A stretch of 64,000 nucleotides of DNA. Origin: Gimesia maris. GTDB taxonomy: Bacteria; Planctomycetota; Planctomycetia; Planctomycetales; Planctomycetaceae. The DNA lies in assembly GCF_008298035.1 (NCBI RefSeq), contig NZ_CP042910.1:310001-374000 (forward strand), given 5' to 3'. Below are positions 3,599 to 41,776 of this stretch, one piece after another. Position 1 is the first letter of the stretch. Each line of letters starts with the position of its first letter. The translations under genes were made by a program, and so were the position numbers. Below the pieces are notes generated by a model, which saw only the letters and a program-made list of their open reading frames with translations, was not told where the DNA came from and searched no databases.

Positions 3599-3865
3599 GT
3601 TCATCTCCAGATAAATAAAGAAATAAGAGATAGGGATAATCTAATTTTTGAAAATATGTCCCATTATTCAACCTGGTTAAAACTTTTAACGAAAGATCGA
3701 AAATCAGTTTACCGCAGGAGTTCTGTCAGTAATTTCGGGTCAGCTAATTTAATAGTAAGATCAGTTTCCTTAAAAAATCAGACGTAAGACTCAGATCCGT
3801 TTCAGAGTTACCTGACAGGCTGTTTTTGAATGCCAGGTGTTGAATGTGGTTTCCATGTCAAAGTG

Positions 3866-17298: not shown

Positions 17299-18213
17299 TT
17301 AATGTACGCCTCCCATCTCGGTTTCCAGTTTGTCTTTGTTGTTGAACAGGATATTACTGTCCATCGGTCCGAACCAGCCAATCTGGAATTTTTGGGGATC
17401 TCCTCCGTAGGCTGAAGTTCCTGTACCTGCCATCACTGCTGACGTCACACGACCGTCTGCCCAGGCAATATTGGCGACGGTTCCTGTATGGCGGAAATGA
17501 ATGGAGGGATCGGGCCGCCAGGGAGCTTCCGAGAAAGTCGGGGTCCAGTTATCGATGAAGTAAGGAGGCTCGATAAAGCTGTATTCGATGATGTGTAAAT
17601 CGGGAAAGCCCTGAGCCAGGGCGGCGTCTGAAAATGCAACCGTGCGGGCCAGGCTGCCAATCTCCCGCATGTTCGTGGCGATCATATTACAGGTGGGGTA
17701 CGTGTATTTCCAGGATGTTCCGCCCAGGTAAGCCTGATTGTAACCGTAGCCTCCGGTTCCCCCTTCAAACGCATTGGCCACAGTCCCATGGGCGGAAAAG
17801 TTACCAAACGTCGGGCATTTTTTAATACTCGTACTTTGCTCGAGGAACGGTGCCAATGGTCCCAGGTGCGCCTGGAATTTCGTGGTGCCATCGTCGGTGG
17901 TTCGTTCACCGTGCCAGCGTTTTTTACCCCCCAGGCCTACATGCGAGTCGGCAGCAGCGCGTGGCCAGTACCCGCCATTGGAATCCGCGTACATGTGACA
18001 GGCCAATACAATCTGTCTCAGGTTATTTTTACACTGAGCCATCCGGGCTGCTTCGCGAGCCTGCTGAACGGCGGGGAGCAGTAAGGCAATCAGAATCGCA
18101 ATGATGGCGATGACAACCAGCAGCTCGATCAGGGTAAAGCCACGTTGACGGGTGGCTCTGGCAGGGTGCTGATTGATTTGAGGAGGAGGGGAGGGAAGAT
18201 TCGAAACAGGCAT
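17299..18213 (-). CDS. DUF1559 protein with prepilin-type leader
   Basis: This 304-residue protein has a longer, proline-rich leader (about 25 residues) before [20 protein letters not shown], so the prepilin-peptidase site is kept. It ends with a divergent H-X9-DG motif ([18 protein letters not shown]). It is diverged from the three prepilins at 0.4-5.5 kb. It heads an operon with a lipoprotein gene and two beta-propeller genes, a context suggesting a shared surface assembly. Confidence 0.92.
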
Positions 18214-26567: not shown

Positions 26568-27057
26568 TGGGATTCCTTTCCCAGTAAATAGTAACAATAC
26601 CCCCTTCGGTTTTCGGGCACGTTTCATATCAGGATTCCGTTGTCAGGTGAAGAGCGTTTTTCAGATCCAGGACCTCCAATTCCTATTTTCAATTCGTTTT
26701 TCAGGGCTTTTACTCGACATGTTGCCGATTTCCCACGTGTTGCTTTCAGGCATCTTTGCACTAAGTGATTAAATATTAGCCGGTTACGTGTGATTGACAG
26801 CCGGTTGCTCTCGGCGTGTTGCTTTTTCGCCTCAAGTGGCAGACCTACGTTTCAGAGCGGTACCAAAAATATCCTGCTGAGTCTGGTTTTTTTATCTCCC
26901 TTTACAGTAACCACTTACGATTCCAGTTCTGAACAGTTTGTTAAAAAAGATTTACGGTTGGGCACCTTTGGTATTCAGCTTGCTTTACATCTCTTTATCA
27001 ACTTTGAAACACAAACAACTCGATGCAAACCTTTCATACACTTTGGAGACCACCACG
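26568..27057. other. Intergenic region upstream of the pilin-like pair
   Basis: About 490 bp between the divergent small lipoprotein gene and the first pilin-like gene. Open frames here overlap the pilin gene out of frame or lack coding character. I see no specific element. Confidence 0.5.
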
Positions 27058-27336
27058 ATGAAAAACATTATCAACCAACTGATCAACGACGAAGCCGGCT
27101 TCATTGTTTCTGCAGAACTCGTACTCATTTCCAGCATCGCCGTGCTGGCCATGATCGTCGGACTGTCTGAAGTCGCCAACAACGTCAACCAGGAACTGGA
27201 AGATGTCGGCAGTGCCTTCGCCAGTATCGATCAGTCTTACAAATTGAGCAACGCACATGGCCACAAAGCCTGCACCGATGGCAGCAGATTCAACGACTGC
27301 CCTGACTTCTGCTCCGGTCAGTGGGACGTGCAGTAA
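27058..27336 (+). CDS. Pilin-like small protein, copy 1
   Basis: The start is ATG 27058 with GGAG 9 nt upstream; upstream in-frame codons (from 26938) lack conservation with copy 2. The 92-residue protein reads MKNIINQLINDEAGFIVSAE, then LVLISSIAVLAMIVGLSEVA, a short leader and long hydrophobic helix as in Flp/TadE-type pilins. The C-terminus carries AHGHKACTDGSRFNDCPDFC. If cleaved at G|F, the conserved Glu falls at +6, not the usual +5. Proteins of this type in planctomycetes have, to my recollection, been mislabelled as aminotransferases; nothing here supports that. Confidence 0.82.
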   Translation: MKNIINQLINDEAGFIVSAELVLISSIAVLAMIVGLSEVANNVNQELEDVGSAFASIDQSYKLSNAHGHKACTDGSRFNDCPDFCSGQWDVQ

Positions 27337-27391
27337 TCCCCAGGCAGAACTCTTCAACTACCCGAAACGTGCTTTCTTTCCAACGACAACC

Positions 27392-27420
27392 GCCTGCAGG
27401 GCTTCACCACCCCTGCAGGC
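27392..27420 (+). terminator. Hairpin between the two pilin-like genes
   Basis: A perfect 10-bp stem (27392-27401 with 27411-27420) with a 9-nt loop and no T-run. It could attenuate read-through or protect the upstream message, giving different amounts of the two proteins. Confidence 0.5.
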
Positions 27421-27473
27421 TTCGAAACACCCGAAACAAAAATGAACCCATTCTCTTTCCGGAGTCCATCACC

Positions 27474-27794
27474 ATGAAAACTATGCTGATCCGTTTAATG
27501 AACGACGAGGCCGGCTTTATTGTCTCGTCCGAGCTGGTCCTGATTTCCACCATCGCCGTGCTGGCCATGATTGTCGGGCTGAGTGAAGTCGCCCATGGCG
27601 TCAACCAGGAGCTGGAAGATGTCGGGAGTGCCTTCGGGCGGATTAACCAGAGCTACTACGTTGCGGGAGCTCACGGCCATAAAGCCTGTACGGACGGCAG
27701 CAGCTTCCATGACCAGGTTGACTTCTGCGATGGCGAGAACGATATCGTCTGCGACCGTTCACCACGTAAAGAAGGTAACGGCTACTACAACTGA
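27474..27794 (+). CDS. Pilin-like small protein, copy 2
   Basis: The start is ATG 27474, with GGAG 9 nt upstream as in copy 1. The 106-residue protein reads MKTMLIRLMNDEAGFIVSSE, then LVLISTIAVLAMIVGLSEVA and HGVNQELEDVGSAFGRINQS, nearly identical to copy 1 over the first 60 residues. The C-terminus keeps GHKACTDGSSFHDQVDFC but adds about 18 residues with one more Cys. It is a tandem duplicate of 27058-27336, probably co-transcribed and ending at the terminator at 27878. Confidence 0.82.
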   Translation: MKTMLIRLMNDEAGFIVSSELVLISTIAVLAMIVGLSEVAHGVNQELEDVGSAFGRINQSYYVAGAHGHKACTDGSSFHDQVDFCDGENDIVCDRSPRKEGNGYYN

Positions 27795-27948: not shown

Positions 27949-28422
27949 TCAAGTTAACCAGGAGCGGCTCTGATGAGGTTGGTCGGCCTGCTCAAGATGA
28001 TGTGGTCGCTGTAAACTCTCCTGCGGGTGAATGATGCTGGTTTCATGAGGTGTTTCATCTTGAAGCTTCTCCATGAGTTCACACCAGCCTTCCCGATGAA
28101 TCATCAGAACTTTGATCGCATTGTGTATATAGCTCACTTCCTGTTTCACGTCGGCGTGGTGCAGGTTTTCATAAACGAAAACGAACAGAGCTTTGAGTTG
28201 CTCAACCATTTCCGGTTGTTGAGAAGAGTCCAGCCCCCCGATCAGCTCCGCGACCAGATCACGACTTTTATCGAGTGCAAAGTGAGCCTGCTCAAAATGA
28301 TTTTCTTCGGCGGCTTGTACTGCTTTTCTGGCAAAGCGTAAGGCTCCGTCTACAACCATAAGATGTAACTGGTGCGGTTTTGCTGTTAAAACCTGGTTCT
28401 CAATATAGTCTGCTCCGTTCAT
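27949..28422 (-). CDS. fliS: Flagellar export chaperone FliS
   Basis: The start is ATG 28422 (MNGADYIENQVLTAKPHQLH), which matches the FliS N-terminus; a GTG seven codons upstream is possible. The core VDGALRFARKAVQA and LDKSRDLVAELIGGLD, then FVFVYENLHHADVKQEVSYI, matches the four-helix chaperone that binds the flagellin C-terminus in the cytosol and stops early polymerisation. The C-terminal 30 residues (His/Gln-rich) are not conserved. fliD lies 55 bp upstream on the same strand. Confidence 0.93.
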   Translation of the reverse strand: MNGADYIENQVLTAKPHQLHLMVVDGALRFARKAVQAAEENHFEQAHFALDKSRDLVAELIGGLDSSQQPEMVEQLKALFVFVYENLHHADVKQEVSYIHNAIKVLMIHREGWCELMEKLQDETPHETSIIHPQESLQRPHHLEQADQPHQSRSWLT

Positions 28423-28477
28423 CTTTTTAGCGGCCCCTCTCACAAGTGCAAATTAATATGTTTATGTCTCAAACTGC

Positions 28478-31198
28478 TTAGCTACTGCTGGCTTTCTGCA
28501 GACCATCCAGGGCAGTCTGCTGTGAATTCAACTGGTTAACGATGGTTTCCTGTAGTGTGAACTGTCGAATAAGTCGTTCACGACGGGCTTCCAGAATCGT
28601 ATTCAATTCATCGACGCGTGTATTCAAAGCCAGTGCCGAAGCCTGTAATGAATCGGTTTGCGCTTTAAGTGTCCCGGTAAAGGGATCTGTCATTGCGGTA
28701 ATGACATCGTCCATGACGACGGCAAATCCGGTGTCCTCCTGCTGGAAAAATTCGGTGACAGCATCGGGGTCGTCAGCCAGCAGCGCGTCGAGCGTGGCGC
28801 TGTTTAATTCCAGTTTGCCATTCCCGTTAAACCGCACTCCCAGTTGGGCCATACTTTTGACAGAGCTGTTACTGATGGACAGCTTTTTCGTCAGCATTCC
28901 CTCCAGGCGGGAAACGGTTGTCTGCACCAGGCTGTTCCCGTTCAGAACGCCCCGCGCATTGGTTTCGGAATTGAAACCGGTGAGTGAGTTCTTGGCGTCA
29001 ACAAAACTGTTGTACGCATTAATGAAGGTAGTGACTGTACTCTTAATTCCCGACGTATCGCGGGCCACATTAATGGTTGACGGTGACAACCCGGTAGACA
29101 GGAGATCGATTTCCAGTCCCGTGATCGCGTCGTCAAAGCTATTCGTCGAAGAAGTCAGCAGAAAGGATGTTTGAGGATTGCTTCCGATGCGGATCAAAGC
29201 ATCATCTGCATCGACAGATGTGGAGAAACCGAAATTATAATCGCTTTCCAGAATCAATTCGCCCGCCGCGCCACTACGGGACGATGTAATCGATAGCCGG
29301 GCAGAATTAAAGGCCGTCCCATCGTCGATGATCGTGGCGGAAGCGACTCCAGTGGCATTAATTTTTTCTGTAATGTCCTGAAGTGTGTCTGTCGCTTCCA
29401 CGGAAACTTCCGTAATCTGTCTGCTGGTGACGCCGGTTGCTCCTGCGCCTTTGATTCCCAGACTGGCTGCTACGGTGCCGCTTGAAACTTCTTCGACTTT
29501 GACATCAAACGAACTGCCTCCGGTGCTTTCCACGATAAATCCGTCGCCGAAATCATTCAGCCGCGCATTGATCTTTGCTCCAGCGGTGGCAGCCGCTTCA
29601 TTGATTTTGGTGAGGACATCACCGACCGTTTTCGTGGTCTCCGAGTCTGATAAACTGACATTGAAGCTGACGCCATCCCGGTCGGTAATTCGAATACTGC
29701 CTGATGTGACCGCGGTTCCGTTTTTTCCATAAGTTGAAAGAGACGTATTTTCGTTAACGTAGCGTAAATCGAGTGAGCCGGAATCGACGGTGTGCTTTGA
29801 ATCTGCCAGAACCGTGTCTATTTTCAGGAAGCCGGCGAGGTTTCCGGTCGTATCCTGGATTTCAATCGACGTTCCCGACGCAGCAGAGGTATCCTTGATC
29901 TGGATGCCCGTTTTGGTAGCGTTGAGACTCGCTTCGATTTGAATACTGCCGTTTGCGTTGATCGCATTGATGACTTCGTCCAGTGTTTCGACGCCGGAAA
30001 AATCAATCGTGGCATTTCCACCTGCGCCATCTTCAAAGTAAACCTGGCCGGCATTCAGGACAGTGCTGCTGGCGGACACGCCACCATTGAGATTTCGCAG
30101 TAAAACGGAATTCAGGCCTCCGGATAAGGTACCTGTAATCGTGCCTCCCAGACCGGTGGTCTGGATACCCAGTTCACGGGCAGCCAGAGAGTCGTTTAAG
30201 GCGGTCACTTCAAACGTTGTGGCGACTCCCCCGGTGTTATCCGTTAAGGTCAATTTTCCATCGCTGGTGATGGCTGCAGTAACCTTGCCTCCATTCGATG
30301 CGTTGTTGTTCACCAGGTCGACAACATCACCGATTGTCTGTGCAGAGTCAAGATCGACGTTAAAGGTAGAGGCATCGGAAGCGGTGATCTGAAAGTCTTC
30401 GGAACCGGAGACTGTGGTAATCCCATTCCCGTCATTGATCTGTGACAGATTAAAATCACTGGTGACGCGATAGACGGAATCTCCCGTCAAAGTGGAACCT
30501 GCAACAGACTGCAGTATGCCCAGGTCGGCTGCTGTTTTTCCTCCTGAGACTTCCGTGACTTTCAATGTACCGAGACCGGAACTGGTATCGGTAAGCACCA
30601 GATGGTCTTCCTCAATGCTGGCGACAATGGAAGTGGCTGAGCCATTTATTTCATCGACCACATCCTGGATATTGAGTGTTCGCGTCAGGTCGATGACTTC
30701 TGTCTGGCCATCCCGGTCGGTTATGCGAATGCTGCCCCGTTGGACTCCCAGTCCATTATTCAATTCTTCCAGCAGCTTGGAATCATCCAGTTTCCCGCCT
30801 CGAGAAAGCGTGATGGTGGTATCGGTGCCTATAGGTGTTGTATCGGAATCCGAAAATCCATTTGATACGACCTGGTGGTTCGAAGAGAGGCGCAAACCCT
30901 GTAGCTGATAAGAGGCTGCGGTCGCGGTGCTGTTCGCGGCAACACTGAACTGGCTGCTGTCAGAGCTGGTGGCCTTCAATGTTTCGAAGGTGCTTTTCAG
31001 GTTCAGCTTTTGAACACTTGTATTCAGAGTCAGCAGGTTTGCTTCGAGGGTTTTGATGCCCCCTTCGGTCGCCTCAAATGCGGCAGCACGGTCCGCAAGT
31101 TTCACCAGGGCGTTGCGTTGTACGCCGATGATGGCATCTACAATTTCTGTGATATTCAATCCGGTTGCCAGACCGACACCGGAACTGATGCCTGACAT
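28478..31198 (-). CDS. fliD: Flagellar filament cap protein FliD, extended
   Basis: FliD_N covers about 1-110 (MSGISSGVGLATGLNITEIV) and FliD_C about 680-905 (SGIKSTVTTFINAYNSFVDA, the GKLELNSATLDALLADDPDA region, coiled-coil end TLQETIVNQLNSQQTALDGL). Between them are five flagellin_IN-like repeats starting near 175, 289, 405, 525 and 606, with the pattern xxDVVDEIN...LxLTDT...LGI. At 906 residues it is about twice the enterobacterial length (468). It caps the growing filament and helps flagellin fold. The many Ser/Thr in the repeats could be glycosylation targets; that is an inference from the neighbours. A FliA-like -10 lies upstream at 31280-31287. Confidence 0.94.
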   Translation of the reverse strand: MSGISSGVGLATGLNITEIVDAIIGVQRNALVKLADRAAAFEATEGGIKTLEANLLTLNTSVQKLNLKSTFETLKATSSDSSQFSVAANSTATAASYQLQGLRLSSNHQVVSNGFSDSDTTPIGTDTTITLSRGGKLDDSKLLEELNNGLGVQRGSIRITDRDGQTEVIDLTRTLNIQDVVDEINGSATSIVASIEEDHLVLTDTSSGLGTLKVTEVSGGKTAADLGILQSVAGSTLTGDSVYRVTSDFNLSQINDGNGITTVSGSEDFQITASDASTFNVDLDSAQTIGDVVDLVNNNASNGGKVTAAITSDGKLTLTDNTGGVATTFEVTALNDSLAARELGIQTTGLGGTITGTLSGGLNSVLLRNLNGGVSASSTVLNAGQVYFEDGAGGNATIDFSGVETLDEVINAINANGSIQIEASLNATKTGIQIKDTSAASGTSIEIQDTTGNLAGFLKIDTVLADSKHTVDSGSLDLRYVNENTSLSTYGKNGTAVTSGSIRITDRDGVSFNVSLSDSETTKTVGDVLTKINEAAATAGAKINARLNDFGDGFIVESTGGSSFDVKVEEVSSGTVAASLGIKGAGATGVTSRQITEVSVEATDTLQDITEKINATGVASATIIDDGTAFNSARLSITSSRSGAAGELILESDYNFGFSTSVDADDALIRIGSNPQTSFLLTSSTNSFDDAITGLEIDLLSTGLSPSTINVARDTSGIKSTVTTFINAYNSFVDAKNSLTGFNSETNARGVLNGNSLVQTTVSRLEGMLTKKLSISNSSVKSMAQLGVRFNGNGKLELNSATLDALLADDPDAVTEFFQQEDTGFAVVMDDVITAMTDPFTGTLKAQTDSLQASALALNTRVDELNTILEARRERLIRQFTLQETIVNQLNSQQTALDGLQKASSS

Positions 31199-31279
31199 GT
31201 TACCAAGCCTGTTTCAAGATAAATAAGCTGAGAGTTCTCAAAATCAGTCCGCGCATGCAGGACTGCTTGATCTAAGTAT

Positions 31280-31287
31280 TTATCGGT
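31280..31287 (-). promoter_or_regulatory. Candidate sigma-28 (FliA-like) -10 element of fliD
   Basis: The minus strand reads ACCGATAA, one base from the FliA -10 consensus GCCGATAA, about 80 bp upstream of fliD. The best -35 candidate (CTCAA, further upstream) is about 2 nt further than ideal. Suggestive only. Confidence 0.35.
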
Positions 31288-31385
31288 TAGTGAAAGGTTA
31301 CCGCTTGAGCAGAGTATCTGATTGCACGTCATCACCCTGGCTGACAGTCAGGGTGTGCCGGTTGTAGCAATTGGGGTGTTGTGGT

Positions 31386-32168
31386 TTATTCGATCACCGC
31401 ATAAGAAAGTGAGGTGGCAAACGGGAACCGCTTCAAACGCAGTTTGGGCAGCCCCAGGGTTTCCATGGCGGCCAGGGTTTCTCCAGGGAATAAATCCATA
31501 TTGAGTTCATCGAAGGCAATGATGGCTCCTTTGGGCATCCGGGGTATCAGCAGTTCCAGCGCAACTTTGGTTGGTTCGTACAGATCTGCATCCAGATGCA
31601 GGAGCGAAACGATCAGGTGCTGATTCTTTTCCAGGTACTCGGGCAGTGTGACGCTGATGTCTCCCTTGACCAGTTCGACTTTGGAAATGTGATTCAGATA
31701 ACGGGTGGAATTATAAACCTGGATCGCTTTTTCCAGGTCTTCCATGGCATTTTCTTCCGATTTAAATCCACCGACTTCCAAATGCTCGCTGGTACCTGTT
31801 GTGTCCTTCTCGCTCAATGAGGGAAAGCCTTCAAAAGTATCAAAGCCGATAATCTTGCGGAGATAATTAACCGGTTCGAGGATGGCGCTGAATTGTGCCC
31901 ATGCCATCAGGCTGGCACCACGGTGTACGCCGAGTTCGACAACAGATCCGTTGACTTCCAGTTGCTGCTGGAAAATTTCATAGCGGGCCAGCAATTTAGT
32001 AATGGATTGCCGGGAGACGTACTTGGTAAACGCATCGAGTTTATTCAGATTCGAGCCGACGCTTGATTCCCAATATTCCTCGACCGCATTCAACGCATTC
32101 AGGTCACTGTTCGACTGGTTTTGTGACTCGCCTACGTTCCCCTTTAACAGCCCTTTTTTTTCTGCCAT
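31386..32168 (-). CDS. TylF/macrocin-O-methyltransferase-like protein
   Basis: A 260-residue class I SAM methyltransferase. The SAM loop is VVELGVHRGAS (about 76-86), followed by GFDTFEGFPSL, and the acidic metal-binding LLHLDADLYEPTKVAL (about 189-204) and IIAFDELNMDLFPGE, as in TylF and NovP. Relatives put methyl groups on sugar hydroxyls of natural products or surface glycans. It is the last of four genes between flagellin and fliD, on the same strand with a 65-bp gap. The target is probably a sugar on a filament protein, by context. Confidence 0.87.
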   Translation of the reverse strand: MAEKKGLLKGNVGESQNQSNSDLNALNAVEEYWESSVGSNLNKLDAFTKYVSRQSITKLLARYEIFQQQLEVNGSVVELGVHRGASLMAWAQFSAILEPVNYLRKIIGFDTFEGFPSLSEKDTTGTSEHLEVGGFKSEENAMEDLEKAIQVYNSTRYLNHISKVELVKGDISVTLPEYLEKNQHLIVSLLHLDADLYEPTKVALELLIPRMPKGAIIAFDELNMDLFPGETLAAMETLGLPKLRLKRFPFATSLSYAVIE

Positions 32169-32233
32169 TTCAGTTACGCTTTTTAATGAAGTGAGAAGTG
32201 AAATCAGGTCTGAAACGTCCTGATGGTCTCAGG

Positions 32234-33085
32234 TTAAGACGCCGTTCGCGACATCGCCCGTCTGGCATGTGTAATATCCCTGATCCGCCAGCCCTCTTTT
32301 AGAAACTGAGGATCCCTGAGATCTCGATACCGCAGATTCAACACAAAGCGGACGTACTCTGATTGATTCTTGCAGGGAGTGTGGGGAGTCAGGCTGTGAA
32401 ATAACAGTACGTCCCCCACTTCCAGTTCTGTTGGTACAACACGGTCATATTGATCAACCACATCGGGAGGCAGTGAATGCCATTTTGTGTTGATACCATG
32501 GTTGTGTTCATCATGGGCGACCGGTGCTTTCCGGTGTTCTCCCAGAGCGAGTGTCAGGCTCCCGTTATTCTGATCTGTTTTCTGCAAAGGCGCGTACAAG
32601 GTTATGGTAGAATAAGGTCCTTCGTTGTAATACCAGTCCTGATGCCAGGAAGCGAGATGCCATTCGGCATGGGGCATACTCATGAGAATGATATAACGAT
32701 CATGGATGGAGATTTCCGGCGAGAGCAGTGTTTCCAGGATCGTCAGTAATTTCGGATGTGATCCCATTGAGTGTAATGCAGGCGCAGCATTCATGGAATC
32801 ATATAAAATACTCTGCGCACCAGGATGGTTCGATTCCAACTCGCGCAGACGATCGCTGATCTGGGTGATTTCATCCGCATCTTGCGAGACCGTGGCACCA
32901 AAATGACTCTCCAGCAGAGCGAGTCTGCCTGCCAGACTGTTGCGGATGGGAAGAAACTCATCCGGTGAGAACAGGCCTTTAACCAGGATTGCCCCCTCTT
33001 CCGCATACTGATTTACGAGCGCGTCCGAAAGTTCAAAACCGTCCTGGTAACAGTTCAGAGTACATAATTGATTGAGGGGCAGCAT
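32234..33085 (-). CDS. Phytanoyl-CoA dioxygenase (PhyH)-like Fe(II)/2-oxoglutarate enzyme
   Basis: A 283-residue protein with EEGAILVKGLFSPDEF at the start of the PhyH fold, the iron ligands H148-x-D150 (ASWHQDWYYNEG), and a distal His in HSLTPHTPCKN (about H235), then EYVRFVLNLRYRD whose Arg could bind 2-oxoglutarate. Enzymes of this family hydroxylate or otherwise oxidise small molecules and sugars. It sits between the sulfotransferase and TylF-like genes in the flagellar locus, 38 bp from the former, so glycan hydroxylation is a reasonable guess. Confidence 0.85.
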   Translation of the reverse strand: MLPLNQLCTLNCYQDGFELSDALVNQYAEEGAILVKGLFSPDEFLPIRNSLAGRLALLESHFGATVSQDADEITQISDRLRELESNHPGAQSILYDSMNAAPALHSMGSHPKLLTILETLLSPEISIHDRYIILMSMPHAEWHLASWHQDWYYNEGPYSTITLYAPLQKTDQNNGSLTLALGEHRKAPVAHDEHNHGINTKWHSLPPDVVDQYDRVVPTELEVGDVLLFHSLTPHTPCKNQSEYVRFVLNLRYRDLRDPQFLKEGWRIRDITHARRAMSRTAS

Positions 33086-33123
33086 TGTATTCCATCCCTG
33101 GTTTATTTTGCTGATAGAGAAAA

Positions 33124-33813
33124 CTATTCGCCGTAACCAAACTGGGTCACAAGCGGTTTAAAAAACCGGGTGACCATGGCCTGTTCTGATTGCGAAAGAC
33201 GATCACGCCATTTTCCAATCATCAATGGTTGAATGGGGTCAGAATCTGCCGTGTGTTCCCCATCGATGCGGACTGCTTGTGTAGTGCCGGCAGTACCGGA
33301 GACCGCTGCAGGCGCTGTCAGTAGAATATTCATTTCCTGTGCGATCGCCTCGACTTCATCCAGTTTCAGCAGGACACCCAGTTTGGTCGCCATCTGAAAG
33401 ATCAGTCCTTCCGCATTTTTCAATAGATGTTCATAAGGAATTACCATGATGCCGGGCAGGCAGAGTGCATGATGGATTTCCTGGTATGCCGCGACAGTCT
33501 GATCGACGGCATCTGCAAACGACATGGCCTGAAGCTCCATTTCTGCACAAACGACATCCCGCGGATCTCGATAGTGATAAAAGGGGCGTACGGCATCATC
33601 CTGGGCAGCGGCAATGGCTTCCTCCGTCAGTAAATCGAACTGCAGAATCAACCGCTCATTCAGGTCCATGGTTCCGACGAGCTGATTCAGTTCTTGTACG
33701 GAATTCGCTTTTTCCGAACGAAACTCGAAGCTCTGATGCTGCCAGATTTTCTGGAATACAGCCTGCGACCAGTCAGTACCTGATTTGGGAATTCCGAAAT
33801 TGAAAATGATCAT
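33124..33813 (-). CDS. Sulfotransferase-like protein
   Basis: A 229-residue protein with the PAPS 5'-phosphosulfate loop FGIPKSGTDW (about 6-15) and the 3'-phosphate motif YHYRDPRDVV (about 79-88). The C-terminus PLMIGKWRDRLSQSEQAMVT resembles the GxWxxxLSxxE motif of sulfotransferases. It is likely to use PAPS to sulfate a hydroxyl group. It is placed 69 bp after the glycosyltransferase fusion, so a filament glycan is the probable acceptor; this is inferred. Confidence 0.87.
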   Translation of the reverse strand: MIIFNFGIPKSGTDWSQAVFQKIWQHQSFEFRSEKANSVQELNQLVGTMDLNERLILQFDLLTEEAIAAAQDDAVRPFYHYRDPRDVVCAEMELQAMSFADAVDQTVAAYQEIHHALCLPGIMVIPYEHLLKNAEGLIFQMATKLGVLLKLDEVEAIAQEMNILLTAPAAVSGTAGTTQAVRIDGEHTADSDPIQPLMIGKWRDRLSQSEQAMVTRFFKPLVTQFGYGE

Positions 33814-33882
33814 AATTGTTCCTGTAGGAGATGAGACTCAGAAAAGCTGGCAGATTAGAACGCCTGCCGGACTTTTGAATTA

Positions 33883-36800
33883 CTAATTGAGATCCAGTTC
33901 TTTTGATTCACGCTGACGCGTTTTCTGAGTGAGGAATTGCGGTCGAGGTACCGTTGTTTCCGCCTTTGAACTGCGGTAGGGATGCTGGTCCTGGAAATAA
34001 TCAATGAGCTTTCCCTGGTATTCAATTAAGATCGTTTCAAAGTGGATCTGATTACGTTGAATTTCCAGCACGATATCTGCAGCCCGCCATTGTGTAGCAA
34101 TCAGAATAATATCAACGGGATTTTCCACGAGTTTGTCACGGAAGAAAATCTCCTGGCCGGTACCCGGAACGAATGTGCCGACTTTATTCATGTCGGAATC
34201 GATCACGATCGGGAACCGTTGTTTGTCCAGCTTGTGCTGATTGATGAAGGCAGCCGCTTTCCCCGTGCCGCCCCAGATAGCAGTTCGTTTACCGGACTCC
34301 GTCAGTTCGTCAAACTGCACAGCAAGTTGCGTTGCTGACTGCAGCGCTTTTTCCTGGAAGGCGATCGCCTGCCGCGCCAGTTCGACCTGATGACTCTGGG
34401 GCTGGAAGCTGGCGATACCGTATATGACTTCGTCATTATAGCTGGTTTCAATCAGGTCCACGCTTGTGGCACAGCGTTTCAGTAAGCGTTCGAGTGATTG
34501 TGTGGTGAAATGAGAGTTATGTTCGTAGAAGAAATCCACGGTACGACCGGCTGCGAGTACACCATCGATACAGGGGACTTCGATAAACAGACTGGTTGCA
34601 CATTCAGCCACATTGGCAGCAAATGCGACCTCCTGAGCAAACCCCAGAGGGTTCATCAGGTGTTCGAAAACATGCCGGCTGATAATCAGATCCGGCTTCA
34701 ACTCAGCCAGATGCCGACCAGGTTCGAACAGCATCGCGCGGGCTTCGATCAACCCATCTTCGGTTTCGATCTCGGCATTGGGATCAAAGCCGATGAATTT
34801 TCCCCACGGTATTTTTTTGGCCAGGGAACGCAGTAAATGTCCCTCGCCGCAGCCAATCTCCACAACAATCGGATTTTCCGGCAGTCTGATGGCAATCAGA
34901 TCACAGACATTCTGCAGGTGTTCGGACCAGATCGCACCTTTGTTGAACATCAGGTTGGGTTTGTCAGAATAAGGGACCTTGGCATAATCGAATGCAGCAT
35001 TTGAAATATGTCCACAGTCCACACATCGCATAAAGTCGTGCGGCAGTCGTTCCATTGCCTGAGCTTCTTCACAGCTTTGAGGCCAGGCCAGTGTGGTTAA
35101 TGGCAATAAGCCTCCATCGTAAAACTGGACTGCGATATGATAACCACAGGCGGGACAGGTGTAATTCTGCATGGCAGAATTCAGGATTTTGATGTGGTCA
35201 GCGTTTCCCGGCTGATTTAATGAAGCATCCATGCTAGGTTCCTTGCTGATGTTCGAGCTATTCAGACTGAAAGATGATTGATTGACAGGCTGCTGAGATT
35301 CACTGTGTTTCAATGCTGATTCAAAGAATGTTTCCAATTCCCGAATGGTGTTGACGTCTTCAAAAACCAGATGGCTTTTAGAGAGAATTTTGAGGCGAAG
35401 CTGATCGCGGAATGCTTCATCAGAACCGATGCGGCAGGCCAGATTGATATATTCTTCAATCGAAGAAACGACGCAGTCCTGCAGTCCCATTTTATTGTAG
35501 ATCGCGAGCATACCCCTGCCGCGCATGTATTTTGCCGGTAGTGTGACAACCGGGGTTCCGATTGCCATCGACTGATAAGATGTATTTCCCCCTCCAAAGT
35601 GCAGGGGGTCGAGCAGTACATCTGAAATATAAATCAGATTCAAAAAGTCAGGAGTCGACAGGCTTCGCAGGAAGAGAATTCGGTCTACCAGGTCCGGGAA
35701 TGATTTTTTAAACCGCGTGACCAGCAGGTCTTTCCACTTTGAGGTCTGATCACGAATCATCACGATTCGTGCCTTTGGATCCTGTTGGAGAATCCCTGCC
35801 AGGATCTGATCAAATTCGGGATGAATCTTAAACAGAGTCTGTGGGCAGGCGTAAACATGTTCGTCGTCGGACAGTCCGAACACAGCCCGGTTTTTGATTT
35901 TATCCGGCAGGGCAGGGCGGTAGTAATACGACGGCAGAGAGTCCAGTTGTACCAGTTGTTCTGTGTAGTGTTCCTGAGCGTCTTCCGGCTCGATCAGTTT
36001 ACTGGAGATGAAATAGTCTATGGTTTTCAGACCAGTCGTAATGGGATGTCCCCAGGTTACGCACTGGATGGGAGCATGCCTGGTCGTTGCCAGCGAAAAG
36101 ATAAACGGATCCATACCGATGTCTGCATAAAACAGAACGTCCAGTTCCAGGCTCTGCAGCACCTGGCTGGCCTGTTGTAATTCGATCCCCAGAAAGACGT
36201 ATTCATCAGAATGGTGGCGAATTTCCCTGGCAATGTCATCGGTATGTTTCGTGGGAGAAATTGTGATCACGTGATATTTATCCCGGTCGAAATTCTGAAT
36301 GATGCCTTTCATCAGGGAGCCAATAGTATGGTTGTAGAACAGGCTGGAAATAAACCCGATACGAATTTTTCCATCGCGGGCGACTGTCGGTTCCTGCGGA
36401 TTCCAGCTGAGGGTATTTCTAAGCTGAAACAGCTCCGTCATCCGTTCGATAATGGGGCGGTCATTAAATCCCTGATAGGCCAGGTAGAAAGTTCCCGGAG
36501 TCAGTTTGATCGAAGTATCGATCTGCACTCCATCATCGTGCATCTCTTCGATTTTTTGCACGAAAGTATTCCGGACCTCCTGGATTTCATCCATGGAAGT
36601 CGGAATGGGCGGGAATAAACTAGCCAGGGCGAGTCGATATTCCGGCTGCGGAATCAGCTCATACGCTTTTTCGAGCGCCTGTTTTGCTTCCTGAAACATT
36701 CCCATGGACTGGTAAACAGTAGCCAGGTTGCAGTACACAGGAAGATAGCCATCGTCTAATTTGCGGGCACGCAGGAAACTCTTCAGTGCTTTCTTGAATT

Positions 36801-38079
36801 GTTTCTTCTGGTTTTGAATATGACCTTTGTAGTTCCAGAGAGCCGCGCACTCCGGATGTGCTTCCAAACCCTGATCTATATGGTGGGTTGCTTCCTTGAC
36901 GCGCAATTGTGTTGAATAAAGTTCAATCAGTTTCAATCGGGACTGTAAGTGGTCGGGTTCCAGTGAAACGAGAGTCTCAAAATAACCAACGGCTGAACCG
37001 ATTTTCCTCTGCTGGTGGCGCACGCAGCCCATTCCAAACAGTGAGGCGGTATTCGTAGAGTCACTTTGATACAGACGCTGGAAGATATCGTAGGCCTGCT
37101 CAAAATCCCCAAGTGCCGCCAGCATGGATCCCAAGTGAAAGGCGGCACCGGGATGGTTGGGTTGTTTTTTGAGAACTGCCCGGTAAGTGAGCATGGCATC
37201 TGTAGTCTGCTTTGACTCTTCCAGGGCTTTTCCCAGGTGGAAACGGATCTCGCAATTGTCCGGAGAATGGTTCAGAGCGTCGTGAAAACATTTGATGGCA
37301 GTGTCGAAATCTTCCTGTCTGGTATACACGATGCCGAGGTTATTGAGGATTTCCCAGTTGCCAGGCTCCAGAATGGCTGCTTTTCGGAGGATGGAAATGG
37401 CAGTCTCGTATTTCTCTTTTGCCGAAAGAAAAACGGCATAATTTTTCATGGTATCGAGATGATCGGGAGCCAGTTGTAATGCACGCTGGTAAGCTGCATC
37501 GGCTGATTCCGTGTCCTCTGCTTTCGCCAGTGCATTCGCCAGATTAAACTGCGCGGTATGCAGATCTGGTGCCAGCCGGACGACCTGCTTACAGATTTCG
37601 ATGGCTTCTTCAACTTCATCTGTTTCCAGCAGCAGGTTCCCCAGGTTGATCAGAGCATCGGGATATCCCGGTTTAAGCTCCAGCGCTTTTCGATAAGCGT
37701 CTATCGCTCTTTGTTTTTCGCCAGAATTTGCCAGAGTAATCGCGAGGTTATAAATAAAAGCTGCGTTCCGGGGTTCCAGTTCAATCGCCCGTTCGTAATT
37801 CTGAATGGCATCCTGATACTTTCCCAGTCCTTTACACGCGGCACCGCGGTTGGAAAAGAACGAAGCGATCCCGTCGTTCCGGCAGATCGCCCGTGTAATG
37901 AAATCGATCGCTTTGTGATACTGCTTCAAATGCAGATAGACCACGCCCAGTAAATGCAGGGCATCGACCTGTCCGGGATCGTGTTGGAGAACTTCGCGAT
38001 ACAGCTCTTCTGCCAGAGGGAGATTACCCGCCTGATGCTGTTGAACCGCTGTTGCCAATAGTTCCTGAGGTGAAGGCAT
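33883..38079 (-). CDS. TPR - SPINDLY/OGT-type glycosyltransferase - sugar C-methyltransferase fusion
   Basis: A 1398-residue three-part protein. Residues 1-490 hold about a dozen TPRs (AIQNYERAIELEPRNAAFIY). Residues about 570-925 match the GT41 OGT/SPINDLY domain (KIRIGFISSLFYNHTIGSLM, WGHPITTGLKTIDYFISSK, FGGGNTSYQSMAIGTPVVTL). Residues about 975-1360 resemble a sugar C-methyltransferase: a four-Cys zinc site (CPACGY...CVDCGH), SAM loop VVEIGCGEGHLL, RHVFEHLMNP, and a C-terminal domain with AIWGGTGKAAAFIN and VIDSDMNKVGTFVPG. The Ser/Asn-rich stretch 925-970 is a linker. Between flagellin and fliD, it probably glycosylates flagellin Ser/Thr and C-methylates the sugar or its NDP form. The substrates are inferred. 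Confidence 0.9.
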   Translation of the reverse strand: MPSPQELLATAVQQHQAGNLPLAEELYREVLQHDPGQVDALHLLGVVYLHLKQYHKAIDFITRAICRNDGIASFFSNRGAACKGLGKYQDAIQNYERAIELEPRNAAFIYNLAITLANSGEKQRAIDAYRKALELKPGYPDALINLGNLLLETDEVEEAIEICKQVVRLAPDLHTAQFNLANALAKAEDTESADAAYQRALQLAPDHLDTMKNYAVFLSAKEKYETAISILRKAAILEPGNWEILNNLGIVYTRQEDFDTAIKCFHDALNHSPDNCEIRFHLGKALEESKQTTDAMLTYRAVLKKQPNHPGAAFHLGSMLAALGDFEQAYDIFQRLYQSDSTNTASLFGMGCVRHQQRKIGSAVGYFETLVSLEPDHLQSRLKLIELYSTQLRVKEATHHIDQGLEAHPECAALWNYKGHIQNQKKQFKKALKSFLRARKLDDGYLPVYCNLATVYQSMGMFQEAKQALEKAYELIPQPEYRLALASLFPPIPTSMDEIQEVRNTFVQKIEEMHDDGVQIDTSIKLTPGTFYLAYQGFNDRPIIERMTELFQLRNTLSWNPQEPTVARDGKIRIGFISSLFYNHTIGSLMKGIIQNFDRDKYHVITISPTKHTDDIAREIRHHSDEYVFLGIELQQASQVLQSLELDVLFYADIGMDPFIFSLATTRHAPIQCVTWGHPITTGLKTIDYFISSKLIEPEDAQEHYTEQLVQLDSLPSYYYRPALPDKIKNRAVFGLSDDEHVYACPQTLFKIHPEFDQILAGILQQDPKARIVMIRDQTSKWKDLLVTRFKKSFPDLVDRILFLRSLSTPDFLNLIYISDVLLDPLHFGGGNTSYQSMAIGTPVVTLPAKYMRGRGMLAIYNKMGLQDCVVSSIEEYINLACRIGSDEAFRDQLRLKILSKSHLVFEDVNTIRELETFFESALKHSESQQPVNQSSFSLNSSNISKEPSMDASLNQPGNADHIKILNSAMQNYTCPACGYHIAVQFYDGGLLPLTTLAWPQSCEEAQAMERLPHDFMRCVDCGHISNAAFDYAKVPYSDKPNLMFNKGAIWSEHLQNVCDLIAIRLPENPIVVEIGCGEGHLLRSLAKKIPWGKFIGFDPNAEIETEDGLIEARAMLFEPGRHLAELKPDLIISRHVFEHLMNPLGFAQEVAFAANVAECATSLFIEVPCIDGVLAAGRTVDFFYEHNSHFTTQSLERLLKRCATSVDLIETSYNDEVIYGIASFQPQSHQVELARQAIAFQEKALQSATQLAVQFDELTESGKRTAIWGGTGKAAAFINQHKLDKQRFPIVIDSDMNKVGTFVPGTGQEIFFRDKLVENPVDIILIATQWRAADIVLEIQRNQIHFETILIEYQGKLIDYFQDQHPYRSSKAETTVPRPQFLTQKTRQRESKELDLN

Positions 38080-38092
38080 GAGATCTTCTTTG

Positions 38093-38108
38093 AATCACGT
38101 TCGTGATT
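38093..38108. promoter_or_regulatory. Palindrome upstream of the glycosyltransferase fusion
   Basis: AATCACG-TT-CGTGATT is a perfect 7-bp inverted repeat with a 2-nt spacer, 13-28 bp upstream of the fusion's start codon. Its size fits an operator or short hairpin over the ribosome-binding site. Confidence 0.35.
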
Positions 38109-38302
38109 GAAAAAAATTCAATTGAGTACTGAGCAAAACTGTCTGATGCGGAATATCCGGCAGACTTTTTCGGTTATTCTGTTTGTATCGGCTGCGGTGG
38201 GGGTCTAGATAAGCAGTTTCTTTGGTACGCAGCAAATCAGTCGTAAAGGGGGGAATTCACCCCAGACTGGCTGTTAAAATGGGGGGAAATAAAAGCCTAA
38301 AT

Positions 38303-38338
38303 AAAAAAACACTACCCATCTTGTGATGGATAGTGTTT
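38303..38338 (-). terminator. Rho-independent terminator of the flagellin gene
   Basis: A 14-bp stem (38307-38320 with 38325-38338, one G-U pair in the RNA) and a 4-nt loop are followed on the minus strand by a T-run. It lies 46 bp past the flagellin stop and separates flagellin from the modification genes. Confidence 0.9.
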
Positions 38339-38383
38339 CAATAGTTTCAGTATTTCTCATTCAATGAATGAGGCCTTCGAGGA

Positions 38384-40192
38384 TTATCTCAAGAGACTCA
38401 ATACCTGTTGTGGGTTCTGGTTGGCAATCGAAAGAACCGAAATACCAGCCTGGTTCAGAATCTGGGCTTTCGTCAGATTCGCGGTTTCGACAGCGAAGTC
38501 GGTATCCACGATCTGGCTGCGTGCTTCAGAAATGTTTTCCAAGGCAACCCCCAGAGAAGAAACGTTGGTTTCGATCACGTTCTTCTGAATCGCACCCAGA
38601 CGACCGCGAAGAGTGGAAACACGGTTTACCGCTTCTTCGATGATATTCACCAGGTCAGAACCGGGAACCGAAGGACCAACATCCAGCAGACTCTTTCCAC
38701 CACCGGAACCGAGTTCGAACAGTTTACCGGAGACACCACCCAGACGGGCCGTATTGACCGCTTCAATTCCGATACCTACCTGACCAGCGGCTGACACGTC
38801 CTGTCCAATCTGGAACAGTGAACCACCGCCGGTAATGGTGATACTGGCAGTGTTGTCAACAGTGTTAGCGGCAGCTGTGAAGGAGAACGATGCATCCAAC
38901 TGTTGTGACCGCAGGTTCGCTGACAGACCGGAACCCTGGGCAACCTGACCGTTGATTCGAGCAACGATGTCCGAACCAATGTCTCGTTTCAGAGAATTCC
39001 CGTCGGTAATATTATCGACCGTGTCGAATGTACCTGACAGCACGTTGACGTCCACGAATTCATCAGCACCGTAGTTGTTGGCGCTGAAGGTCAGGTAGGC
39101 GTCTGTACCACCACTTAAAGCAGCAGCTGCGGCGGCATCGACAACCCCGGAACCATCACCTTCCACGGCTGATGAGACCAGAGAGTTGGTGTCTGCATTA
39201 CCGTCAAGTAACGCTTTGACTGATGTCGCAGTCGATGAAATATCACCGTTCGCAAGCGTTGCCAGACTGACCACAATCGTAATATCGGAGTTCGTATTAC
39301 TGAAAGTAATATTGGCAGCCGCACTGTTGGCAGAGGGGTCAACAAACGAAATTCGAATGTTTTGGCCTGTGTCGCCTAAGACACTGTCTGATGAACGAGC
39401 GTCGGTAAAAGTCAAATCGGAGTTGGCAGCAGTACTGTCAACCGTCAGATTGCTGGCAACCTTATTGGTTTTGCTCGCTGTCACACCGGTAATGTCGGTC
39501 ACGCCATTCACAGCATCCTTGACGTTGTCCAGCGTGCTGGAAGCACCCAGGAAGAGCACCTGTGAACCACTGGAACCACCTACTTCGATGGTGGTTGCCT
39601 CTGCCAGACCACCGTCGACAGCACTGTAATCCAGGCTGGCCTGAGTAGCCGCAGTGACGATAGTTGCGTCGAGTGTGATCGAACTGCTGCTACCAAATAC
39701 GGCTTCGTTGACCTGGAAGTCGGAGAGTTTCGCAGAGTCCGCTGCTGAAGACTGTGTACGGAACGCTTTACTTCCGTCAATCAGTTTGTCACCAGCGAAT
39801 GATGTATTGGCAGAAATTCGGTTGATCGCTGATAATGCGGTGTCGATCTGCAGCTGATTCGCTGCAATTTCGTCTTGAGACAAAGCACCTTCGTTCAAAC
39901 CTTCCTGGACCAGACCACGAACCTGGTTCAACAGGTTTGTCACTTCGCCCAGAGCCGAGTCAGCAGTTGCGATTACGTTGCTGGCACGGTTACTGTTTTT
40001 GATTGATTGTTCAATAGCAGATACCTGAGATCGCAGAGTTTCACTGGCGATCAGACCTGATGGATTGTCTTTACCCGAGTTGATTTTCAAACCGGTTGAC
40101 AGTCGTGTCAGCGAGGTATCCAGAAGATTTGTAGATTTGTTTAAACTACGCAGACCTCTCAGCGAGGCAACGTTAGTATTAATTCGTGTCAT
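38384..40192 (-). CDS. fliC: Flagellin
   Basis: A 602-residue flagellin. The conserved D0/D1 N-terminus (MTRINTNVASLRGLRSLNKS; GKDNPSGLIASETLRSQVSA) and C-terminus (LGVALENISEARSQIVDTDF; ISVLSIANQNPQQVLSLLR) form the filament core. The central 150-500 is rich in Ser, Thr, Ala and Asp and contains a flagellin_IN-like repeat (LDNVKDAVNGVTDITGVTAS); it would be surface-exposed and offers many O-glycosylation sites. It is secreted through the flagellar export apparatus. An AAGG lies 10 nt before the ATG. It is transcribed alone, ending at the 38303 terminator. Confidence 0.96.
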   Translation of the reverse strand: MTRINTNVASLRGLRSLNKSTNLLDTSLTRLSTGLKINSGKDNPSGLIASETLRSQVSAIEQSIKNSNRASNVIATADSALGEVTNLLNQVRGLVQEGLNEGALSQDEIAANQLQIDTALSAINRISANTSFAGDKLIDGSKAFRTQSSAADSAKLSDFQVNEAVFGSSSSITLDATIVTAATQASLDYSAVDGGLAEATTIEVGGSSGSQVLFLGASSTLDNVKDAVNGVTDITGVTASKTNKVASNLTVDSTAANSDLTFTDARSSDSVLGDTGQNIRISFVDPSANSAAANITFSNTNSDITIVVSLATLANGDISSTATSVKALLDGNADTNSLVSSAVEGDGSGVVDAAAAAALSGGTDAYLTFSANNYGADEFVDVNVLSGTFDTVDNITDGNSLKRDIGSDIVARINGQVAQGSGLSANLRSQQLDASFSFTAAANTVDNTASITITGGGSLFQIGQDVSAAGQVGIGIEAVNTARLGGVSGKLFELGSGGGKSLLDVGPSVPGSDLVNIIEEAVNRVSTLRGRLGAIQKNVIETNVSSLGVALENISEARSQIVDTDFAVETANLTKAQILNQAGISVLSIANQNPQQVLSLLR

Positions 40193-41776
40193 GGCAAACA
40201 GCCTTTCTCACTTGTAAATTGTGCTTCCCAAGGGATTAATGGGTTTTAGCTACTTATATGATTTAGGTTTCGAGTGATGCTGAAACCACCCGAAGACATT
40301 AGTTTCTGATCCTGTCAAATCCGATAAATGTGAAACAAAGCCATACATTCTGACAGGATTCCTCGAACTGATGTGGCTTATCTTTCCATAACAAAACCAT
40401 TCCAGATTCAGACGACATGGTAAATGTGCAGAGGGAAGCTGCGCATTCACGTTCATATTCTATCGGAATGTTACTTTAGGCAATCTGAGTGTCTTTGGTG
40501 TTTTTTTGAAAATAAACCGATCTCTCCGGTATCGCACACGGGAAAGGACGAGTTGTAACTATTATCCGTTCCTTCATCAAAAGTTCGGCTGTGACTCTAT
40601 TAGCGTGAGAGAGGAAAGTGGTGATCGTTTCATGCAAACGAATATTTATGTTAAATCGGGCTGCAGGATCGTTGCCGTTTGCCTAACTGGACCTCGCCTG
40701 TGTTGCTGGATGGATAGTCTTTGCCTAACCGTCAAACTCTGTCTTGAGGGAAATCACTCCTGTTATCACTGCACTTAGCGTCTGCTCAGTTTGCTGTATC
40801 TGCTTCCGACAGTTTGATATCGTGCATGGATAATCCCGGAAGAGGCGCTGGCAGACAGAATGTTTACGGATTCAATTATCGCACTGAAACACAGTCTGTT
40901 GATTGAAACTGATTGACGAAGGCAGTGATTCTTTTGCTTCGATCTTCTAAAATCATGTTTTCTATTCACAGAATTGAATTACCGAAGCCGGTTACCTTTG
41001 GTCTGGCTTTCCGGAAAAACTGGAAACGATTGATTCAAGAGGGGAGATATTCATTCGAGAACTGCGCAATGCACATTTACCAGGTCAACGAAATGATCCA
41101 TTAGTTACTTTGCAGGCAGTTTAAAACAGAGTCTCTGCCCCGGTGATTCATCAAAGAGTATCCTGGAGTCAGCGTGTGATTCACATTGGTGATGCAGGGC
41201 AATTCCAAGAGGTGTGAATGAACGGGGGTAATTCAATAGGAATCAGGGCATGCTGTAGAATACTTACAAAACGCATCACAATTAAGCATAGCGCCTCTCG
41301 ATCTATGATACCTGGTCCAGATGATTCTGGAGACGCGACAGTAAAACTGGATCCAGTCTGGAAATTGAAGAATCAACTGCCGTCTGAAATGCGCTTGATT
41401 GGCAGAAAAGCATCAGGTGCATTTTGTAACTGCTATTGCAGAGTTGTTGATTATGCGGGTTAATGATAATTGTTCTGATGAATGCTGGTCGTAACAAATG
41501 AACTTGGTCTTCTTGGACACTCATTCTTTTCATGCAAAAAGTCAACGCTTATTGCTCAAGATCACTGATCGGCAATGACGATCCATCTTTCATATCTTGC
41601 CAAAAGCGAACATGCCACAGCAGGTGGTTGAATAAGCAGACAAATGAAGTCTCTACAGTTGATGGAATAAATATTACAGATCATATTGCACCTGCGCTGA
41701 ACTGATTCACTTTCAAGAAGTATTGATCCTAAGAAGACCAAATTCACGAATCGCATACCTTAGGGAGCAGCAACGC
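40193..41776. other. Gene-poor region upstream of flagellin
   Basis: About 1.6 kb without a convincing gene. Short frames at 40506-40778, 40913-41104 and 41218-41463 lack ribosome-binding sites and coding character. It must hold the flagellin promoter; no clear sigma-28 or sigma-54 site reads toward flagellin. A CCGATAA at 40321-40327 faces the other way. Copy A of the 90-nt element lies at 41273-41360. Confidence 0.5.
41273..41360 (-). repeat. 90-nt element, copy A (orphan)
   Basis: On the minus strand it reads CAGACTG...GTTTTACTG, then GCGTCTCC, about 40 nt, GAGGCGCTAT and GTGATGCG. It aligns without gaps to copy B (61262-61349) over 88 nt at about 70 percent identity (counted by eye), and to copy C (61569-61658) with a small indel. 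The ATG at its end opens a frame of only about 32 codons, so no sigma factor gene follows. Confidence 0.65.

Follow-up and report, generated by a model that had tools for sequence, protein, structure and literature searches.

We analyzed a 64,000-nucleotide window (positions 310001-374000 of a 7.82 Mb single-contig Gimesia genome) in which four enzyme genes lie between the flagellin gene fliC and the filament cap gene fliD. The gene content of this locus suggests that the four genes are probably a flagellin glycosylation island, in which a fusion enzyme and adjoining tailoring genes would act on flagellin from a position between the fliC and fliD transcription units. We favor a dedicated flagellin-modification island because the slot is conserved, the island holds the sole glycosyltransferase family 41 (GT41) gene found, fliC and fliD are adjacent in other genera, and in another genus (genome G081) a related GT41-methyltransferase pair sits beside fliD-fliS.

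The fliC-fliS locus across Gimesia

The original prediction placed seven consecutive genes from fliC to fliS on one strand, and both the ORF map and Pfam confirmed this order. All seven are intact open reading frames (ORFs) on the minus strand, with the coordinates and strand predicted for them. Read along that strand, fliC (38384..40192) encodes a flagellin of 602 amino acids (aa; Flagellin_N 89 bits, Flagellin_C 78 bits) and is followed by a 1398-aa fusion of tetratricopeptide repeats (TPRs), a GT41 domain and a methyltransferase (33883..38079; Glyco_transf_41 93 bits with TPRs, Methyltransf_23 54 bits, Methyltransf_14 42 bits). Next come a 229-aa sulfotransferase-like protein, here called sulf (33124..33813; Sulfotransfer_1 23.9 bits, cut-off 22), a 283-aa PhyH-family Fe(II)/2-oxoglutarate dioxygenase-like protein (phyH, 32234..33085; PhyH 44.7 bits) and a 260-aa TylF-family O-methyltransferase (tylF, 31386..32168; TylF 43.6 bits). 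The locus ends with fliD, encoding the 906-aa filament cap (28478..31198; FliD_C 141 bits, FliD_N 46 bits), and fliS, encoding a 164-aa export chaperone (27949..28443; FliS 90 bits, also above the NCBIfam fliS cut-off). The sulfotransferase assignment is the weakest of the seven gene calls.

To compare gene order, as the original prediction had proposed, we used 17 Gimesia genomes, the window genome included, within a family in which flagellin is widespread (Flagellin_C match in 109/170 genomes). The 80 flagellin regions fetched comprised 13 Gimesia and 67 other-genus ones; together with the window this gave 14 Gimesia loci, while three genus genomes (G034, G036 and G038) had no fetched fliC region. 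In 14/14 loci the fliC-fliD slot is occupied by the fusion gene and sulf, which share it with phyH and tylF in 12 of the 14. In the other genera, the 30 loci that carry both fliC and fliD (of 67) have the two genes 38-573 bp apart, several with a shorter flagellin type, so that the insert is present in every Gimesia locus and absent from 30/30 pairs elsewhere.

Across the genus, the methyltransferase and sulf were each detected in 16/17 genomes. In G034 and G038 the methyltransferase, sulf, phyH and tylF are consecutive on one contig; in G036, which is 74% complete, none of these four was found. GT41 matches come from the island gene alone (15/17 genomes, two segments each), with no match in G036 or G038, both fragmented assemblies. 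All genes are under purifying selection, with a median ratio of nonsynonymous to synonymous substitution rates of 0.03-0.09 (6 to 75 unsaturated pairs per gene). Because gene order and purifying selection hold across the examined Gimesia loci, the fliC-fliS arrangement is not a product of chance.

Orthologues of phyH and of tylF were detected in one and the same set of 14/17 Gimesia genomes. The sister genomes G028 and G037 lack both, which amounts to one change on the tree and to a loss under the midpoint root, and they keep the spacer between tylF and fliD, CCGATA block included. The substitutions that track this loss number 0 in FliC and 1 in FliD (a lost Ser/Thr), and a sister pair that bears the module also gave 0 and 1. 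Since so few substitutions accompany its loss, the PhyH-TylF pair looks like an optional finishing module. The window genome contains two flagellin-family matches, fliC and a weaker 755-aa protein. The second (G000:C1:1058134-1060350, plus strand) has similar matches in other Gimesia genomes and is perhaps the hook-filament junction protein FlgL.

Transcription signals divide the locus. The hexamer CCGATA, which we take to be the core of a FliA-type -10 element, occurs on the minus strand upstream of fliC (40461..40466; 13/13 Gimesia upstream stretches), of the fusion gene (38186..38191; 14/14 spacers) and of fliD (31281..31286; 14/14, including the loci without phyH-tylF). It is absent from the Gimesia spacers before sulf (0/14), phyH and tylF (each 0/10 measurable) and fliS (0/14). 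Between fliC and the fusion gene lies a terminator-like hairpin of 15 pairs followed by a T run (38306..38339, minus strand), and its inverted repeat is visible in seven printed rows of the 14-row spacer alignment. Given this hairpin, and CCGATA before fliC, the fusion gene and fliD but not inside the operon, there are probably three transcription units: fliC, fusion-sulf-phyH-tylF and fliD-fliS; we infer the sigma factor. A single seven-gene transcript was considered and is unlikely, given the hairpin after fliC and the internal promoter-like motifs. CCGATA also precedes fliD in the island-free relatives L073, L074, L094 and L096, and in the fetched non-Gimesia loci it was found before fliD in 5/28 cases as compared to 11/347 other ORFs (Fisher p 0.004).

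Domains and conserved residues of the island enzymes

The fusion enzyme is laid out approximately as TPRs at residues 1-500, GT41 at 540-925, and paired cysteines with the methyltransferase at 975-1398. Its gene is 79-87% identical to named Gimesia records, and a contig search with it yielded four distant TPR matches besides five relatives of the Gimesia type. GT41 is a family of protein glycosyltransferases that also includes Asn transferases. The fusion has both a TPR N-terminus and a GT-B/GT41 domain with its conserved motifs, and the solved structures closest to the transferase part, at about 78-97 bits, are SPINDLY, human OGT and, at 96 bits, the bacterial TPR protein 5djs. Among 14 Gimesia rows the motifs WGHPITTG and GGGNTSYQS are near-invariant, and the Lys of LFKIHP, whose aligned counterpart in human OGT is the LYKIDP Lys, is kept in all 14.

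The methyltransferase part is less well anchored: its nearest solved relatives, D-mycarose 3-C-methyltransferase (4rv9), presumably MtmC, and TcaB9 (3ndi), match weakly (≤29 bits), the match to the C-terminal profile is partial (positions 42-147 of 160), and the predicted structure is poor, with a mean predicted local distance difference test score (pLDDT) of 51. The S-adenosylmethionine motif, the His of the RHVFEHL motif and a Glu-His pair align with 4rv9 and 3ndi. We take the catalytic residues of TcaB9 to be Tyr76, His181, Tyr222, Glu224 and His225; when these were placed by eye on the fusion, four of the five were kept in the 14 Gimesia rows and in seven printed rows of a further alignment. 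At the Tyr222 position, where 4rv9 has Tyr, Gimesia and G085 have Phe, and G081, G095 and G097 have Tyr.

Of the tailoring proteins, the window copy of sulf falls just above the Sulfotransfer_1 cut-off, and 6/6 scanned orthologues match at E ≤ 0.01. No solved structure matches the protein at E below 0.7, and its predicted structure is poor (mean pLDDT 44). Over 392 genomes sampled across the phylum, the sulf profile matches only nine Gimesia genomes and G095. The closest solved relative of the PhyH-like protein is 1-deoxypentalenic acid 11-beta-hydroxylase, a weak match (36.5 bits); assuming that the iron ligands are H-x-D and a distal His, the corresponding WHQDW and distal His are kept in 12/12 genomes. 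The TylF-like protein is clearly related to its nearest solved match, the TDP-rhamnose 3'-O-methyltransferase CalS11, at 135 bits; HLDADLYEPT, in the conserved D-x-D region, is invariant in 12/12, and pairwise identity over these 12 genomes is 86.6-99.6%.

These assignments suggest a scheme in which an operon of four genes, probably read from a flagellar-type promoter of its own, would have stood between the fliC and fliD-fliS units since the Gimesia ancestor or earlier. The TPR domain may capture flagellin in the cytoplasm before export, by analogy with Caulobacter FlmG, and the GT41 domain would then transfer one sugar to Ser/Thr of flagellin (Asn being also possible). The donor would most likely be a common or deoxythymidine diphosphate (dTDP)-deoxyhexose nucleotide made elsewhere in the genome; a dTDP-glucose 4,6-dehydratase above the curated cut-off is encoded outside the island in 17/17 Gimesia genomes. 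The fused methyltransferase, as a relative of sugar 3-C-methyltransferases, would add a carbon branch to the transferred sugar, and PhyH and TylF may supply an optional second step of oxidation followed by O-methylation. The sulfotransferase-like protein could add a further group, perhaps sulfate, or may have lost catalysis with 3'-phosphoadenosine 5'-phosphosulfate (PAPS). The data themselves show the gene content, its conservation, the joint loss of phyH and tylF, both fused and separate states of the two core domains, and a single-copy GT41; we infer the acceptor, the sugar, the order of steps and every chemistry of the island. Because a flagellated stage is reported for Gimesia strains (PMC7716864), a filament to be modified does exist.

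Relatives in other genera and competing explanations

The close clade of the methyltransferase part (clade A) comprises nine non-Gimesia genomes of the family at 47-68% identity, the next matches reaching 31% at most. In G073, G074 and G071 (cut by the contig end) one fused gene encodes both GT41 and methyltransferase; G061, G081, G095 and G097 have them as separate neighboring genes, and in G085 one stop interrupts the frame that the two share. G056 (L148) stands outside this tally: its methyltransferase frame has a TPR-like start, and GT41 is absent beside it. In G081 the unfused pair is directly upstream of fliD-fliS, a position that is either old and shared or independent; in G095 and G097 a sulfotransferase-like gene follows the pair. 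Because these relatives hold the pair fused or adjacent with variable other enzymes, GT41 plus methyltransferase looks like an old core around which the others come and go. Directly behind the pair in G085 we observed a 51-residue tylF remnant (L146 2969-3121, plus strand; 73% identity), and this locus may be a decayed island.

GT41 genes also neighbor flagellar genes in other genera. They lie beside flagellin or fliD in G002 (genus g2, L129), G022 (g8, L130), G081 (g35, L134) and G150/G151/G152 (g53; L118/L131/L119), and 8.4 kb from fliC in the complete genome G014 (g7, L132). At least six of 33 GT41-bearing genera, Gimesia included, have such a link within about 8.5 kb, a lower bound obtained by reading matches on shared contigs. 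In a GT41 tree of 42 rows (quick search), flagellin-linked members fall in both of two distant clades. In 10/13 fetched other-genus loci, TylF homologues (34-39% identity) have a GT41 gene at a distance of 2-3 kb (the L161 position was taken from the TylF homologue search rather than the ORF map), and this GT41 is of another type than that of the fusion. A sugar aminotransferase gene stands between GT41 and TylF in L158, the one such TylF locus scanned; a DegT/DnrJ/EryC1 aminotransferase follows GT41 in both loci scanned, L158 and L132, and the sulfotransferase-like genes of L155 and L132 (two scanned) are clear PF13469 members. Because GT41 recurs with TylF, aminotransferase and sulfotransferase genes in other genera, the combination of GT41 and exchangeable sugar-tailoring enzymes is a design that recurs within this planctomycete family.

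Several of these loci have features of their own. The operon of L155-L164 and L132 (genera g6, g7, g23, g46 and g50) runs from GT41 through a protein of about 220 aa, DegT/DnrJ/EryC1 (two scanned) and TylF to a class I methyltransferase (one scanned), with a sulfotransferase in some and TylF missing from L132. In g53, five tandem TPR-GT41 genes lie directly behind fliC (L118 4614-15763 in G150, L119 3846-15142 in G152, L131 4463-15649 in G151), and each of the five has a counterpart in all three genomes in the GT41 tree. In G022 (L130), two GT41 genes flank a group of flagellin, flaG-like and fliS-like genes, and near them a PhyH-like protein appears by eye to be fused to HEAT-like repeats (606-2027, plus strand).

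A number of results weigh against a dedicated flagellin island or against parts of the scheme. In the complete genome G095 the GT41-methyltransferase-sulf cluster is near 3.63 Mb and fliC near 4.57 Mb, about 0.94 Mb apart; no fliC, fliD or fliS match was found in 20.5 kb around the cluster, whose neighbors by eye are coaD-, ornithine-cyclodeaminase- and serine-acetyltransferase-like genes. No fliC, fliD or fliS was found in the short stretches examined around the fused genes of G071, G073 and G074, and in G074 fliC and fliD are directly adjacent, away from the fused gene. The original prediction joined the four enzymes in one flagellin-modification pathway and held that relatives carrying them away from flagellar genes, beside another glycan pathway, would refute it. 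The slot and the sole GT41 uphold the dedicated island in Gimesia; the G095 cluster goes part of the way toward that refutation by its distance from fliC, but no adjoining glycan pathway was recognized there by eye. The other-genus TylF homologues bear on this too, being close to GT41 genes of the other type and, in L158, next to a sugar aminotransferase gene.

The island's four genes include, by Pfam, no gene for sugar-nucleotide synthesis or transport; synthesis genes of this sort are common in flagellin glycosylation islands, though they do not strictly define them. Ser/Thr enrichment in FliC was considered as a sign of acceptor sites and none was seen: the Ser+Thr fraction of the central region is 0.223 in Gimesia versus 0.244 in 31 other-genus flagellins. 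C-methylation is a tentative reading of a distant match, and linkage to Ser/Thr as opposed to Asn is likewise tentative. For sulf, we take the PAPS motifs to require a basic residue in the 5'-phosphosulfate loop and a Ser in the 3'-phosphate motif. The loop Lys is replaced by Asn in 13/14 Gimesia genomes, the window being the Lys exception, and the usual Ser position is variable in the genus; the G095 homologue has Arg and Ser at these positions by eye. The predicted sulfation thus keeps its Sulfotransfer_1 match but loses support through its degenerate PAPS motifs, which makes it a guess. As for transcription, CCGATA is frequent in the window (44 matches vs 20.6 in shuffles) and is not enriched before fliC in non-Gimesia loci (3/61 vs 11/347 other ORFs, p 0.35), so co-regulation draws its support from the Gimesia alignments and from the fliD upstream sites. 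Window scans were at chance level for terminators (16 sites vs 14.1 in shuffles) and for sigma-54-like (67 vs 66.1), sigma-28-like (17 vs 12.7, with 15/100 shuffles reaching 17) and sigma-70-like (8 vs 12.5) sites.

The position of the G095 cluster, together with the lack of fliC, fliD and fliS in the examined stretches of G097, G071, G073 and G074, would fit a fusion enzyme that modifies some other cytoplasmic or surface protein, such as a stalk fibre, a pilin or a giant surface protein, with the fliC-fliD slot a mere landing site. Gimesia cells are reported to bear fibres across the whole surface (PMC7716864), and the enterobacterial fliC locus is described as having inserts of unrelated function (PMC4875605). 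We nevertheless consider another target unlikely: the slot is kept in every Gimesia locus with a conserved promoter-like motif, the G081 pair adjoins fliD-fliS in another genus, and GT41-flagellin neighborhoods recur in two GT41 clades. A smaller departure from the preferred scheme, and one to which we give somewhat less credence still, is that the same island is N-linked, with HMW1C-like glucosylation of Asn and tailoring enzymes acting on a plain hexose. The GT41 domain does match an N-glucosyltransferase model (58 bits, far below the cut-off of 1000) and HMW1C-like structures (49 bits), and the FliC central region is 8.5% Asn in Gimesia versus 6.4% in others; against this, the best matches are of the TPR-bearing bacterial, OGT and SPINDLY types, and the TPR array is the architecture of FlmG and OGT. 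Finally, the operon could serve to produce a methylated sugar that has nothing to do with flagella, either small and diffusible or lipid-linked, with GT41 as a scaffold. Its nearest solved methyltransferase relatives (CalS11, MtmC and TcaB9) do belong, by what we partly assume of their roles, to antibiotic sugar pathways. We regard this as very improbable, given that GT41 is a family of protein glycosyltransferases and that the four genes provide neither synthesis nor transport of a nucleotide sugar.

If the preferred reading of a flagellin glycosylation island is true, the flagellin of planctomycete swarmer cells would bear a tailored glycan, the product of a single fused enzyme and of exchangeable finishing modules. 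The natural lineage without PhyH-TylF (G028/G037) would make the chemistry readable by comparing filament masses, where strains are cultured, and the unfused GT41 and methyltransferase relatives would let the role of the fusion be probed. More broadly, planctomycetes may have repeatedly built modular TPR-GT41 cassettes for flagellin decoration; in Gimesia the fusion would bind, glycosylate and C-methylate flagellin, and an exchangeable PhyH-TylF module would finish a branched, O-methylated deoxysugar otherwise known from antibiotics. As a whole, this wider proposal is tentative and we hold it to be doubtful.

Elsewhere in the window, two tandem small genes (26938-27336 and 27321-27794, plus strand) are convergent with fliS; their products are pilin-like by eye and have in common the hydrophobic stretch DEAGFIVS-ELVLIS and the motif GHKACTDGS. 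Four minus-strand genes (462-1415, 2555-3604, 4486-5442 and 17299-18213) have almost identical pseudopilin-like N-termini and are probably of the DUF1559 type, which we understand to be common in planctomycetes.

Comparison with known systems

The nearest precedents are FlmG and the enterobacterial GT41-methyltransferase islands, neither of which was named in the original prediction; the kind of island is itself already known. Among the titles and abstract starts of the open-licence PMC literature we found no account of a Gimesia-type flagellin island, and in that literature no paper was found on flagellin with phytanoyl-CoA dioxygenase.

In Enterobacteriaceae, flagellin glycosylation islands next to fliC encode proteins that combine GT41 with a methyltransferase (De Maayer and Cowan 2016, PMC4875605). 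Like the Gimesia insert, these adjoin fliC and include SPINDLY/GT41 proteins, nearly all with methyltransferase domains, and extra tailoring methyltransferases (PMC4875605). The enterobacterial inserts are described as lying between fliC and fliA, some with sugar-synthesis genes, and as strain-variable in content (PMC4875605), whereas the Gimesia island occupies the fliC-fliD slot, is stable over the genus loci, has no sugar-synthesis genes, and adds the PhyH-like and sulfotransferase-like proteins; the stems "sulfo" and "dioxygenase" are absent from the main text of that paper. The fused methyltransferases of the two systems are likened by description, and their types may differ.

In Caulobacter crescentus, the TPR domain of FlmG binds flagellin (PMC7591256). 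FlmG is a soluble flagellin O-glycosyltransferase that, like the Gimesia fusion, has N-terminal TPRs and a C-terminal GT-B transferase (PMC7591256). At 596 aa it uses pseudaminic acid, and its domain account includes no methyltransferase (PMC7591256); the 1398-aa Gimesia protein has a fused methyltransferase and neighboring tailoring genes, and the two are likened by architecture, not sequence. The Geobacillus island similarly adjoins a flagellin gene, its locus also holding fliD and fliS, and has tailoring methyltransferases; unlike that of Gimesia, it is placed between flaA2 and flaG, and "sulfo", "phytanoyl" and "TPR" are absent from the main text of the paper (PMC5109656).

The Gimesia TylF-like protein aligns with CalS11 (PDB 4gf5, 3tos) over residues 49-251, a full-length likeness, and the substrates of the two may differ. 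Archaellin glycosylation uses other machinery. The archaellin glycans of Halobacterium salinarum are sulfated (PMC11980604, PMC6591318), so that tailoring of a filament glycan by a sulfotransferase has a parallel there; those glycans are archaeal and N-linked, unlike what we propose for the Gimesia island.

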